DNA of 37,885 bases, taken from Methylococcales bacterium. Lineage in GTDB: Bacteria; Pseudomonadota; Gammaproteobacteria; Methylococcales; Methylomonadaceae. This document shows, in pieces, positions 14,717-20,724 of this stretch. Each line of letters opens with the position of its first letter. The first letter of the stretch is position 1. Both the position numbers and the translations under genes were made by a program. The notes beneath the pieces are model-generated. The model saw only the letters and a program-made list of their open reading frames with translations, searched no databases and was not told the origin of the DNA. Location: assembly GCA_028688755.1 (NCBI GenBank), contig JAQTXN010000008.1:1-37885 (forward strand). Reading direction: 5' to 3'.

Positions 14717-15352
14717 TTAATGCTTCGTCGCTAGAAAAAACTCGCAATAATTGCTAATCACGCATTGTTCGCACAATGGTTTTCGCGCCATGCAAGTATA
14801 ACGACCGTGCAAAATCAGTAAATGGTGAGCATCGAGTTTGAATTTTTCAGGAATCACCCGCTCTAATTCCTTTTCAACCGCTAAAACGGTGTTGCCATTT
14901 GCCAAACCGATGCGATTTGCGACCCGAAAAATATGTGTATCCACAGCAATCGTTGGTTCACCAAAAGCGGTATTTAACATCACGTTCGCCGTTTTTCGTC
15001 CAACACCCGCTAAACTTTCTAATTCTGCACGAGTTTGCGGCACTTGCCCATCGTGTTTTTCGAGTAATTTTTGACACAACAAAATGATGTTTTTAGCTTT
15101 GGTGTTAAACAAACCAATCGTTTTGATGTATTCCTTCAAGCTTTCTTCACCCAGTTGCAGAATTTTTTCAGGCGTATTTGCCACTGCGAAAAGTTTGGCT
15201 GTGGCTTTGTTGACGCTTTTATCAGTGGCTTGCGCGGACAAAACCACTGAAATCAATAACTCAAAATCACTGGAATAAACGAGTTCGGTTTTCGGCTGTG
15301 GAATAGCAAAGGCGAGTTGTTCAAATAATCGTGAAATTTGTTGTACATTCAT
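14717..15352 (-). CDS. nth: Endonuclease III
   Basis: [55 protein letters not shown], CxxxxxxCxxCxxxxxC cluster. Confidence 0.96.
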
Positions 15353-16401
15353 AAGACAGGCATCTTTTTGGAATTAACAAACTCAATAAGTTTCCTGTTA
15401 TTGGTGTAAGTCACAAAATCATCAAATTTTTGTTTTGCTGCGCCGTTGGCAATCACTTCACGCGCTTTTGCAATCCCGTTTTCTAGCGAATCGGTTAAAT
15501 TTGCGGCGTAAATTGCTGCGCCTGCATTGAGTAAAACAATGTCTTTTGCCGCGCTGTTTTCATTATTTAAAACGGAGTTGAGCATTTTTAAACTGTCTTG
15601 TGCGTTGGTAATTGCAATGTTTTCTAAGTTTGCTCGCGTTAAACCGAAGGTTTCGGGTGAAATGGTGTAACACAAAACGTCACCATTTTTGAGTTCGGCA
15701 ACGTGAGTTTCACAAGCAATGCTGATTTCATCTAAACCGTCTTCTGCACTGACAACTAAAACGTGTTCGCTACCTAATTTTTTGAAAACGTGTGCGAGCG
15801 GTTCAACCCATTTTTTATCAAACACGCCAATCAATTGATTTTTGACTTTGGCAGGATTTGACAACGTGCCGAGGAAATTAAACATGGTTCGCACGCCTAA
15901 ATTTTTTCGCACTTCGCGGGTGTGCTTCATCGCGCCATGATAATTTTGGGCGAATAAAAAACCGATACCTAACTGTTCAACACATTGCGAAACTTGCTCA
16001 GGTGTTAACGTTAAATCTACGCCTGCACGTTCCAAAACATCCGCGCTGCCGCAACAACTCGAAACGGAGCGATTGCCGTGTTTGGCGACTTTTCCGCCTG
16101 CTGCCGCGACGACGAAGGCGGCGGTTGTGGAGATGTTAAAGGTATTTGCCCCGTCGCCGCCTGTGCCGCAAGTGTCCACAACATGGTCTCCTGAAATGGC
16201 AATCGGTGTAGCCAGTTCGCGCATCACTTGTGCGGCGGCGGCGATTTCGTCAATGGTTTCGCCTTTTGAGCGCAAGGCACATAAAAAGCCTGCGATTTGT
16301 GCTTCACTTGCGTTGCCGCTCATAAAAAAGTGCATCGCTTCGCGCATTTCTTCAGGCGTTAAATCTTGATGTTGCAGGAGTTTTTCTAAAAGTTGATTCA
16401 T
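15349..16401 (-). CDS. trpD: Anthranilate phosphoribosyltransferase
   Basis: [35 protein letters not shown]; 4-bp overlap with nth. Confidence 0.96.
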
Positions 16402-16428
16402 GTGTTTTTTGAGTTTGTTTTTTGAAGT

Positions 16429-16458
16429 TTAGAAATTCGAATAACTTAATCCGTTCAT
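16429..16458 (-). other. Putative micro-ORF (MNGLSYSNF) upstream of trpD
   Basis: ATG preceded by GAGGAA with 5-nt spacing on the minus strand. Confidence 0.25.
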
Positions 16459-16486
16459 GCTGATTCCTCGTCTAAGTAGTAATAAG

Positions 16487-17677
16487 CTATTGAATGAATT
16501 TAATTGCATTATTGATTTTGTACGGAATAGATTCAACGATTTCTACATTATTCGGCATTTCATTTTCAATGAAAAAATCTTCTTGGGTTTTGATTAAAAA
16601 CGATTTGATTGATCCACGTTTTTTTGCAGCTGTGCTTAATAAATAAGCGGCTTCTGTAAGTGATTCATTTTTTTTCTGCATTCGGACTAAAACAGGCGTT
16701 CCAAGATATTGTGTTTTAAGAATTGCATCAACGCCTTTATTTCTGTGAACAGGTTGTAATTCAATCCCCTTCAGTAATTTAAGTGCGTCCTTATCAGCGG
16801 TACTGTAGGATTGCCTACCTTTTTTCAGTAATTCAGATTCCGTTTTAATTGGCGATTCTAATCGTTGTTTCGATAACTCCACAGCATCTGCCGATTCATC
16901 AATGCCAATATAACGACGATTATTTAATTTCGCCGCTACCAAAGTTGTACCGCTGCCACAAAAAGGATCTAGCACAATATCGCCTTCATTTGAGGCAATT
17001 GCTAAAACTCGTTCTAACAAAGCAATCGGTTTCTGCGTTGGATAACCAACACGTTCTTTTGCTTTTGGATTCAAATAGGGAATATCCCAAACATCACTGA
17101 GTGGCACGCCATTTTTAGCATTATCTAAAATAATTTCGCCTGTTTCGTTTCGTGCATAAACGGATTTACCTTGTTTATTACGAATTCGTTTCTGCAAAAT
17201 TTGATCTATATTTGTCGATTCAGAATAATCAGTGTAAAGCGTATTAAATTTGAAATCGTCAGTTTTTGAATAAAAATAAAGCGTTTGATGTGATGCTAAT
17301 AATCCTTTTTTTGCATTTGACCAACGTTTGTAAGTCCAAATAATTTCAGAACGAAATTGTTCCATTCCAAAAATTGAATCTAAAATCATTCTGATAATAT
17401 GGGAAGCATTTCTATCGCAATGAACGAATAAACTACCAGTATCTGATAACACACGTTTTAACCCCATTAAACGAACAAATAAAAATTCGGCATATTCTTT
17501 ATGGCACGACCATAAATCGTTATACGAAAACGTTTTAGTTCCATCGCGTGTAGTAAGTTGCTGTGTTTTTTGAGTAAAAAATGGTGGATCAAGATAAATC
17601 AAATCAATCGAATTTTCAGGCATTGTTGCAACAATATCCAAGCAATCACCGTGAATAACAGAATCAAGTTTGTTCAT
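16487..17677 (-). CDS. Type II site-specific DNA methyltransferase, beta-class motif order, with ~130-aa C-terminal extension
   Basis: DLIYLDPPFFTQ (motif IV) precedes VLDPFCGSGTTLVAAKLNNRRYIGID (motif I); overlaps REase gene by 14 bp. Confidence 0.92.
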   Translation of the reverse strand: MNKLDSVIHGDCLDIVATMPENSIDLIYLDPPFFTQKTQQLTTRDGTKTFSYNDLWSCHKEYAEFLFVRLMGLKRVLSDTGSLFVHCDRNASHIIRMILDSIFGMEQFRSEIIWTYKRWSNAKKGLLASHQTLYFYSKTDDFKFNTLYTDYSESTNIDQILQKRIRNKQGKSVYARNETGEIILDNAKNGVPLSDVWDIPYLNPKAKERVGYPTQKPIALLERVLAIASNEGDIVLDPFCGSGTTLVAAKLNNRRYIGIDESADAVELSKQRLESPIKTESELLKKGRQSYSTADKDALKLLKGIELQPVHRNKGVDAILKTQYLGTPVLVRMQKKNESLTEAAYLLSTAAKKRGSIKSFLIKTQEDFFIENEMPNNVEIVESIPYKINNAIKFIQ

Positions 17678-18302
17678 TTTGATTTACCTGATTTTCAAGT
17701 GCAATTTTTTCTAAAATAGCTTTAAGGTCAATTCCAGTACGCTCTAAAACGTAATCCCACGCACTATCTCCATAATGGTATTCACCGCCAATTCCGTGAT
17801 AAAGCGTTTCTAATGTTTTTTGAATGCTAATTGCTTGCTTACGATTTGGATAATAAAACATCACGCGAATTGGCTTGTAACCCGCGTCAAAAATAGCTTT
17901 TATGCGAGTATGTTCTTTCGTAATGTGGTCGCCATCAGTGGTTGCATCACGCCATTTAATTTCAATGGCGTTATTACCTTCTAAACAATCAATTTCAAAT
18001 GTCTTTGGACGCGAACCTAATGTATTTGGAATTTTTGTTGTTGCGGATTTGGGAAATTGATGAAGAAAACATAATTTTGTCACTTCCTCTAAAAATGAAC
18101 CTGCATATTTGTACAAAAATCGTCCTTTGTTTTGGTATAAATCAATCAATTGACCTTCTTTGAGCGAAACGTCCAAAACTTGGTAAATTAAAAAATGTGA
18201 ACAATCGTCCGATTCCATTTCGATTGTACGTTCGTCCATTCGTAGTTTTAAATCTGCGGCGTATTTTGCAGCGCGGGATTTTATTTTCTCTTCGATATTC
18301 AT
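17664..18302 (-). CDS. ApaLI-like type II restriction endonuclease
   Basis: GSRPKTFEIDCLEGNNAIEIKWRDATTDGDHITKEHTRIKAIFDAGYKPIRVMFYYPNR; PD-(D/E)xK-like D...EIKW core; next to MTase. Confidence 0.85.
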   Translation of the reverse strand: MNIEEKIKSRAAKYAADLKLRMDERTIEMESDDCSHFLIYQVLDVSLKEGQLIDLYQNKGRFLYKYAGSFLEEVTKLCFLHQFPKSATTKIPNTLGSRPKTFEIDCLEGNNAIEIKWRDATTDGDHITKEHTRIKAIFDAGYKPIRVMFYYPNRKQAISIQKTLETLYHGIGGEYHYGDSAWDYVLERTGIDLKAILEKIALENQVNQNEQT

Positions 18303-18318
18303 AAAAGTAAGTTTGCTA

Positions 18319-19758
18319 TCAAAAAAGAGAATGCGTTTCTGGCAACGATTTTTTAACCGTGGGAATTAACACAGGTTTATCAGATTCAATCACAACTTTA
18401 GGCGATTCAAGAGCCGCTTCGCTTTCAATAATGCTACCAATAATCCCTTCAATCGAACCTAAACTTTCATTCGTATGCAGCAACAATTTTTCGATTTGTT
18501 TTTCGCGTTGCGCCCAAAGTCGTTGCAACGTGTTTTTTTCACGACGCAAATCGTCTTGCATTTGATTGTAGGTTTCAGTGAGTTCGTTTAAACGCGAGGT
18601 AAAAGATTGACTGGTGACAAAATCGTAAAGCATTTCCTTTTTTTCGCCTTTGTCTTTTTGTGCTTCGACAAGATTACTAATTTGAATCACCGTTTCTCGA
18701 AAAACCGCGCTTAAACCCTTGAATTCCTCAAACGTACAAACATAAATATCGTTAATCAAGCCCATGCGTTCCATATCTTTAGGCATTGTTTTCGTGACTA
18801 ACACGCCAATGTTCGCATTGACTGAGCGCATATCGGTTTTAAATTTTTCAATCCATTCTTTATTAAAATTTTCCGTACGTTTGCTTTCGTAACAAATGAT
18901 GCCGCAATTTTTTCGATTTCGCGTGTGAACAATTTGAATGCAATCTGCGCCACGTTGTCCTTTTTGTATTTCTTTAATTTCGTCTAAGGGAAACGATGTT
19001 TTGAGCCATTCTTCAATGGCGAGTTCTTGGACTTCGCCTTGCGCTTGCGTTAAACCTTGCTCGGCGACACGCTGCGCTTCTTGAATTTGATGTTTTAATT
19101 TTTCAATTTCAAAATCTTTATCACGCATTCGCATTTCATTTTGTGCTTCATAGCGTTGTTTTTCTTCACGCAATTTTTGATTAAGTTCTAATGCTGCTTC
19201 CGCTTTTACCGCGTCAGTTAATTCGGCTTTTTCGCGCGTTAAACGTTCAATTTCGGCTTTGGCTTTATTGAACTCGCGTAGTTGCTCTGATTTTGCATTG
19301 AGTTCATCACGCATCAATTGAATTTGTGCTCGTGAATCCGCTTCTAAACTGGCGCGTAGCGATTGTTCCGTTTTTTTGCGCTCTTCAATTAAACGTTGAT
19401 TCAATTTGGCTTCATTTTCAGCTTCAATTGTTTCACGCAAGCCAATTTGTTCACGGTTTAAGCGTTCAATTTCGGCTTTGGCTTTGTTGAAATCACGCAA
19501 TTGTTGAGATTTTTCATTGAGTTCATTTCGCATGGCATCAATTTGCGCTTGCGAATCAGCAGCGAAACTGGCTTTTAGCCTTTGTTCAAGTTGTACTTTT
19601 TCATTTTTTAATTGCACGTCAAATTGCGCTTGTTGTTGCGAAAATTGTGAAGCAAAACTTTGACGCAATTCAGCTTCAATTTGCGAATGCAATAACGCGC
19701 TAACATCAATTTGCGCCGCACATTTTGGGCAAGTTACCGCTTGTTTTTCTTGATTCAT
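18319..19758 (-). CDS. DUF2130-type protein: zinc-ribbon-like N-terminus, long coiled coil, C-terminal nuclease-fold-like domain
   Basis: CPKCAAQIDVSALLHSQIEAELR; coiled coil; GIICYESKRTENFNKEWIEKFKTDMRSVNANIGVLVTKTMPKDMERMGLIN. Confidence 0.82.
   Translation of the reverse strand: MNQEKQAVTCPKCAAQIDVSALLHSQIEAELRQSFASQFSQQQAQFDVQLKNEKVQLEQRLKASFAADSQAQIDAMRNELNEKSQQLRDFNKAKAEIERLNREQIGLRETIEAENEAKLNQRLIEERKKTEQSLRASLEADSRAQIQLMRDELNAKSEQLREFNKAKAEIERLTREKAELTDAVKAEAALELNQKLREEKQRYEAQNEMRMRDKDFEIEKLKHQIQEAQRVAEQGLTQAQGEVQELAIEEWLKTSFPLDEIKEIQKGQRGADCIQIVHTRNRKNCGIICYESKRTENFNKEWIEKFKTDMRSVNANIGVLVTKTMPKDMERMGLINDIYVCTFEEFKGLSAVFRETVIQISNLVEAQKDKGEKKEMLYDFVTSQSFTSRLNELTETYNQMQDDLRREKNTLQRLWAQREKQIEKLLLHTNESLGSIEGIIGSIIESEAALESPKVVIESDKPVLIPTVKKSLPETHSLF
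19141..19578 (-). repeat. Two tandem 219-bp (73-aa) repeats inside the DUF2130 coiled coil
   Basis: LKASFAADSQAQIDAMRNELNEKSQQLRDFNKAKAEIERL vs LRASLEADSRAQIQLMRDELNAKSEQLREFNKAKAEIERL, offset 73 codons. Confidence 0.85.
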
Positions 19759-19887: not shown

Positions 19888-20724
19888 ATGCAAGAACAAG
19901 ACAGAGTAAGACGTTTTTTATTTGAACAACACGGTATTCGCGGCGTGTGGGTGAAATTGGTTGACAGTTGGCAAGCCGCAAAACAATTCCAACATCAGCC
20001 CGAAGTAGCCGTAAATCAGTTAGGGCAAGCATTGGCGAGCGTTACGATGCTTTCGACAACCGTGAAATTTGACGGAGCCATGATTTTGCAAGCGCAAAGC
20101 GATGGCGCAATTTCAACGCTGGTTGCACAAGCGACAAATGATTACAAAATTCGCGGCGTAGTGAAATGTGCGGAAGATGTGAAAGGCGATTCATTGCCCG
20201 AATTATTTGGGGCAGGGCGGTTAGTGTTAACTATCGAGGCAGGAAATGGTAAACCGTATCAAGGCATCGTGCCGCTGCAAGGTGAAAATTTAGCGGCGGC
20301 GTTGCAAATGTATTTTGAACAATCCGAGCAGTTAAAAACGCGCTTGTGGTTATTTGCCAATGAAACACACGCGGCAGGTTTATTGTTGCAAGAATTGCCT
20401 TCGCAAGAAGGGCAACCTAACGATTGGGAAACGATTGAAATTTTAGCGAATACCGTGACCGCGCAGGAAATGTTTGATTTGGATTGTCACGAATTATTGC
20501 ACCGTTTATTTCATGAAGAAGATGTACGATTGTTCAACTCAGAAGTCGTGGAATTTGAATGTTCGTGTTCGCGTGAGCGTATCGAAAAAACGCTGCAAGC
20601 AATGGGCGAAAATGAATTACAAGCGATTTTGCAAGAGCGTGAAACGATAGATGTGACCTGTGAATTTTGTTCTGAAAACTATCGTTTCGACGCGCAAGAT
20701 GTTGAAGCGTTATTTAAAAATTAG
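19888..20724 (+). CDS. hslO: 33 kDa redox-regulated chaperone Hsp33
   Basis: CSCSRERIEKTL and CEFC zinc/redox switch cysteines. Confidence 0.95.
   Translation: MQEQDRVRRFLFEQHGIRGVWVKLVDSWQAAKQFQHQPEVAVNQLGQALASVTMLSTTVKFDGAMILQAQSDGAISTLVAQATNDYKIRGVVKCAEDVKGDSLPELFGAGRLVLTIEAGNGKPYQGIVPLQGENLAAALQMYFEQSEQLKTRLWLFANETHAAGLLLQELPSQEGQPNDWETIEILANTVTAQEMFDLDCHELLHRLFHEEDVRLFNSEVVEFECSCSRERIEKTLQAMGENELQAILQERETIDVTCEFCSENYRFDAQDVEALFKN

Follow-up and report, generated by a model that had tools for sequence, protein, structure and literature searches.

The restriction endonuclease (REase) and DNA methyltransferase (MTase) genes described here very probably form a complete, two-component type II restriction–modification (R-M) system of the ApaLI family, a mobile cargo of about 1.8 kb that has newly come to lie behind a separately evolving DUF2130 gene. 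The window, that is, the whole stretch of 37,885 nucleotides that was analyzed, comes from a Methylococcales genome, and three genes follow one another on its minus strand. The DUF2130 gene (479 aa, 18319..19758) comes first. A 16-bp spacer (18303..18318) leads from its stop codon to the ATG of the REase gene (212 aa, 17664..18302), and the REase frame overlaps by 14 bp (17664..17677) that of a cognate beta-class N6/N4 DNA MTase (396 aa, 16487..17677). The downstream flank is trpD (15349..16401, minus strand), and the divergent upstream flank is hslO, or Hsp33 (19888..20724, plus strand). Domain searches matched the three proteins to PF09903 DUF2130 (E=2.7e-61), PF09499 RE_ApaLI (E=7e-94), and PF01555 N6_N4_Mtase (E=7e-53), and PADLOC called the REase PDLC03586 REase_II (7.8e-99) and the MTase PDLC03339 MTase_II (3.8e-172). 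On these matches, the three reading frames are real genes, and the initial annotation of this DNA was accurate as to gene identities, co-directional order, gap, overlap, and position between trpD and hslO. A promoter and terminator scan gave nothing beyond the level of shuffled sequence.

In the MTase, a DPPF motif (residues 30-33) precedes DPFCGSGTT (near residue 238), an order that, as read from the sequence, fits the beta class. The REase looks intact because the residues of its putative active site, D105, E114, and K116 (D105...E114xK116), are invariant in 25 diverse homologues; a Foldseek search with its model returned no significant match. The recognition site would be GTGCAC, going by the family name; unmodified sites should be cleaved by the REase, with the MTase providing protection. 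As evidence of the recognition site, avoidance of this hexamer is confounded by a general avoidance of palindromes across the genus. GTGCAC is very scarce, with 12 sites in 2.72 Mb, yet the reversed control CACGTG is equally so (14), and species without ApaLI show the depletion too. Whole genomes of most congeneric species carry 4-20 copies of GTGCAC per ~2.5 Mb, and five others carry 125-245. Palindromes are strongly avoided in the genus; within the window (1-37885), the observed-to-expected ratio is 0.01 for CCGG and 0.15 for GGCC.

How ApaLI pairs are usually placed was surveyed in 80 loci (one genome per GTDB species, 1.23 Mb), searched with the MTase and with a DUF2130 profile built from 23 DUF2130 proteins. 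The MTase lies directly downstream of the REase in 72 of the 75 testable loci, which, together with the 14-bp overlap in the window, bears out the earlier pairing of the REase with a cognate MTase. In none of the 65 testable loci does DUF2130 lie within the 2 kb that precede the REase (95% upper bound 4.5%), and a single locus among the 80 (L096) has a DUF2130 gene at all, 7 kb downstream. Among 69 genes lying upstream of the REase, there are 65 unrelated groups, so that, judging from these loci, an ApaLI pair sits behind almost any gene. The upstream neighbor is co-directional with the REase in 59 of 68 loci, compared to a baseline of 74% among neighboring open reading frames of the same loci (p=0.008). 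Tight placement behind a co-directional, unrelated gene is therefore usual for an ApaLI pair and suggests the use of host transcription. Gaps of less than 50 bp to such co-directional, unrelated genes are often seen (loci L027-L106).

Comparison within the genus shows the pair and the DUF2130 gene going their own ways. DUF2130 was found in 17 of 18 genomes (16 of them above the cut-off) and the ApaLI REase in 2. In the other carrier, the congener G010, the R-M pair and DUF2130 are on different contigs (C33 and C28, respectively), and the pair lies 3 bp behind a gene for an MMPL-family transporter. The two copies of the pair are 84% identical over 1807 ungapped bp (window 16497..18303, minus strand), starting 1 bp upstream of the REase ATG and ending 10 bp short of the MTase stop codon, and no homology between the window and G010 flanks this unit. 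The sister species G015 keeps trpD and DUF2130, whose amino acid sequences share 97-99% identity with those of the window. Between the same, exactly bounded breakpoints (window 16427..18317, an interval without homology to the sister), G015 carries genes for a PDDEXK_2 protein (at a distance of 35 bp from DUF2130), a small protein of 119 aa, and a PIN-domain pair resembling a toxin-antitoxin system. Homology to the sister species ends at 18318 and homology to the G010 copy at 18303. The interval between trpD and DUF2130 is a cargo slot (window 16427-18317 versus L121:7256-9367 of the sister). The G+C content of the pair is 34-35%, compared to 44-45% for trpD and hslO. By its location in G010 and its limits of homology, the exchanged genes of the sister, and the low G+C, the R-M pair is a mobile two-gene cargo that has very recently arrived or been swapped in and that moves independently of DUF2130.

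The DUF2130 gene has a different history. It lies directly upstream of prfC in six congeners, with 46-49 bp between the two, and one gene further away in a seventh; in other congeners it adjoins pntA, ispB, an iron-sulphur gene, a transposase, or other genes. Its gene tree departs from that of trpD (Spearman 0.18 over 91 pairs), so DUF2130 also moves, though not with the R-M pair.

The DUF2130 family (PF09903, COG4487) is conserved and essentially unstudied, and by its sequences and models it has the look of an active nuclease. The protein of the window (18319..19758, minus strand) consists of a CPxC knuckle, a long coiled coil, a PD-(D/E)xK-like core, and a second coiled coil; the core, residues 241-322, corresponds to 18793..19038 when computed from residue numbers. 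An alignment of 32 proteins, drawn from the window's subfamily and from a second with about 15% identity to the first, has among its invariant residues G241, E242, E245, G270, D272, E291, K293, and D309. An alpha-beta core lies between two long coiled coils in the predicted structure (8 sequences, mean pLDDT 76). In the model, one strand begins with D272 and the following strand ends with E291xK293, and the strand-helix order is of the PD-(D/E)xK type. The invariance of D272, E291, and K293 and the predicted fold agree with the core proposed earlier. At the N-terminus, the proposal of a zinc-ribbon-like element holds as far as a single CPxC knuckle (C10, C13) and not as a complete ribbon. Foldseek searches with the model brought up SPARDA, MspJI, and Bax1 (E 0.02-0.13, probability 0.6-0.99), with no match below 0.001 and human Rep15 ranking equally; the SPARDA nuclease subunits, MspJI, and Bax1 are all PD-(D/E)xK nucleases. 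A profile search of the PDB with the DUF2130 alignment gave chance coiled-coil matches only. DUF2130 is best described as a predicted PD-(D/E)xK-type nuclease. Its coiled coil contains an internal repeat of two 141-bp units, about 76% alike and 219 bp apart (window 19228-19368 and 19447-19587), and the number of such units varies among congeners.

Outside the genus, the neighborhoods of DUF2130 were examined in 32 loci of Pseudomonadota, with 20 control stretches taken from these genomes at a distance of about 50-100 kb, as well as in plasmid and viral records. Defense genes lie within two genes of DUF2130 in 12 of the 32 loci and in none of the 20 controls (Fisher p=0.0016, with categories chosen after the neighbors had been seen). 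They are SIR2-HerA (L200, L202, L203, L209), OLD/GajA-like genes (L193, L204, L207, L211), type III R-M (L196, L222), PDC-S06 (L190, L222), and a TIR gene (L206); the other 20 loci have no recognized defense neighbor. A PADLOC comparison of "170 families against 7" overstates this contrast, since SIR2, HerA, and GajA each match many overlapping models, and locus counts are used instead. PADLOC itself has no model matching DUF2130. Many of the arrangements are tight and co-directional: OLD-DUF2130 at 2 bp (L193), DUF2130-OLD at 3 bp (L204), DUF2130-SIR2 at 17 bp (L209) and 41 bp (L203), and DUF2130-Mod at 54 bp (L196). Plasmids of two Chryseobacterium species have in common a type I R-M operon, DUF2130-HsdM-HsdS-hypothetical-HTH-PIN-helicase, and in an Aliarcobacter plasmid, DUF2130 is followed by an ATP-dependent endonuclease, UvrD, an MTase, RhuM, and a helicase. 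In such operons (among L189-L222, L249, L253, and L254), DUF2130 is often the first gene, a few base pairs from the next. As the categories are post hoc and defense genes cluster anyway, the defense link of the family is a strong lead and not a proof. The initial annotation's view of DUF2130 as defense-linked is thus upheld for the family and not for membership in an ApaLI R-M system.

Other DUF2130 neighborhoods were noted as well. One co-directional run (L219:4483-11896) consists of an XRE regulator, a DNA methylase-like protein, a 274-aa protein, DUF2130, and an AAA ATPase; it looks like an R-M-like system, and its methylase has no PADLOC match at E 1e-40. A single-sequence search of viral contigs found no close relatives of DUF2130, and an alignment search of them found six distant ones. 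DUF2130 genes occur in phages (L243-L248) and in a Helicobacter heilmannii prophage (L169), and some of them, by eye, adjoin a DNA polymerase- or exonuclease-like gene.

DUF2130 could also be considered in relation to RmuC, which has coiled coil(s) around a PD-(D/E)xK core (PMC1189080). Nearly all genomes of the window's family and order have RmuC, but most of those in the window's genus lack it. Among the complete-enough genomes of the family, it is missing in 13 of 19 with DUF2130 compared to 1 of 16 without (p=0.0003, ignoring phylogeny), and the losses fall in three genera, the window's and two others, all with DUF2130. Phylum-wide, outside the genus, there is no such complementarity (RmuC missing in 6/32 versus 4/36, p=0.5). 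As a homologue of RmuC by profile, DUF2130 was rejected: hhalign gives a probability of 5%, over the coiled coil only, and the domain search returns DUF2130 alone. In the family, DUF2130 may have taken the place of RmuC, or the pattern may stem from shared ancestry, and the near-constant presence of DUF2130 in RmuC-less genomes hints at a role in genome maintenance in the window's family.

The initial annotation had proposed that DUF2130 is a third subunit of the R-M system and that the three genes make up an undescribed combined defense system. As a functional unit in which DUF2130 would serve as an accessory end-processing nuclease or a sensor, the three genes have the right look, being co-directional with a gap of 16 bp, and DUF2130 homologues do sit directly in type I (L249, L253) and type III (L196) R-M operons, as well as in OLD/GajA-like (L193, L204, L211, L254) and SIR2-HerA (L203, L209) operons. 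What makes this very improbable is the absence of DUF2130 from the 2 kb upstream in all 65 testable ApaLI loci, the congener in which the pair has moved without DUF2130 and stands apart from it, and the sister species that keeps DUF2130 with other cargo. The neighborhood survey that the annotation had called for places DUF2130 beside ApaLI R-M in the window's lineage only. Joint transfer or joint loss of DUF2130 and the pair was considered and rejected, as R-M homology stops at the REase ATG and the sister has DUF2130 without R-M. The three-gene system is accordingly rejected on comparative grounds, function in a single strain aside. Neither is the junction likely to be an artifact. The genome is a draft of 240 contigs and the window a whole contig, so a misassembly in a fragmented MAG could be imagined; it is extremely improbable given that sister homology runs unbroken up to both edges of the cargo and that the interval is biologically exchanged in two genomes. 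The R-M copy is also not contamination from G010, because it is 16% diverged from that copy.

Two further readings concern DUF2130 itself. It might be a partner-swapping defense nuclease behind which R-M, Rpn/PIN, SIR2-HerA, and OLD genes are exchanged, the window being one recent combination. The enrichment of defense neighbors over controls scored in the same categories, the frequent first position of DUF2130, as in the window, the other cargo in the sister's slot, and the departure of its gene tree from trpD all agree with this. The reading is nevertheless on the unlikely side, as most congeners have DUF2130 beside housekeeping genes with no defense neighbor, most of the loci sampled outside the genus have no recognized one either, and linkage within defense islands can be passive, quite apart from the post hoc categories. 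Its boldest form, in which DUF2130 would be an unrecognized, widespread defense nuclease with swappable partners (type I, II, and III R-M, OLD/Gabija, SIR2-HerA), ApaLI R-M having just been swapped in here and another partner in the sister, is rather unlikely. It is also fairly unlikely that DUF2130 is, in the window's family, a genome-maintenance nuclease covering for the missing RmuC, with the R-M neighbor irrelevant. The skewed RmuC losses, their confinement to three genera with DUF2130, and the common architecture of coiled coil and PD-(D/E)xK core (PMC1189080) favor such cover, but the genomes are related, which inflates the test, the pattern vanishes phylum-wide outside the genus, and the two proteins lack profile homology.

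The recent arrival of a two-gene cargo remains the preferred reading. In it, the R-M pair would have landed directly behind the DUF2130 stop codon, and the 16-bp co-directional spacing would be a consequence of the landing site. Transcripts initiated at DUF2130 would probably read through into the pair, and DUF2130, which in the genus works without the pair, would most likely act in DNA maintenance or general defense. Some observations pull the other way: a functional operon would show just such tight co-directional spacing, DUF2130 genes in other genomes do lie in R-M and other defense operons, the gene that fills the slot behind DUF2130 in the sister likewise belongs to a mobile or defense type, and a recent recruitment of DUF2130 into a single cassette would be compatible with the comparative data. 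The three-gene system is of no consequence in itself, dismantled as it is by the comparative evidence. The part worth following is the DUF2130 family, which recurs in several classes of defense operons and is near-universal in the RmuC-less genomes of the family; of 5.4 million papers searched, three mention DUF2130, and judged by title and abstract, none of them deals with defense.

Among known systems, the R-M pair is an ordinary ApaLI-type pair of a known kind (PF09499 REase with PF01555 beta-class MTase): it is full length, with the REase before the MTase, overlapping frames, and active-site residues kept, in an order that matches the great majority of loci surveyed, including plasmid pA40P2. 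The pair itself is no different from its relatives; the unusual thing is the upstream neighbor alone. That neighbor is a member of the DUF2130 family, with a full domain match and all invariant residues kept, and it adjoins an R-M pair where most congeners have prfC. It resembles RmuC (PF02646) in its coiled coils around a PD-(D/E)xK core, as predicted for DUF2130 and described for RmuC (PMC1189080), and differs in having a CPxC knuckle where RmuC has a membrane helix. Relatives of DUF2130 are embedded in type I and III R-M, Gabija/OLD, SIR2-HerA, and PADLOC PDC-S06 operons, whereas the ApaLI pair is without an adjoining DUF2130 gene in every other genome seen.
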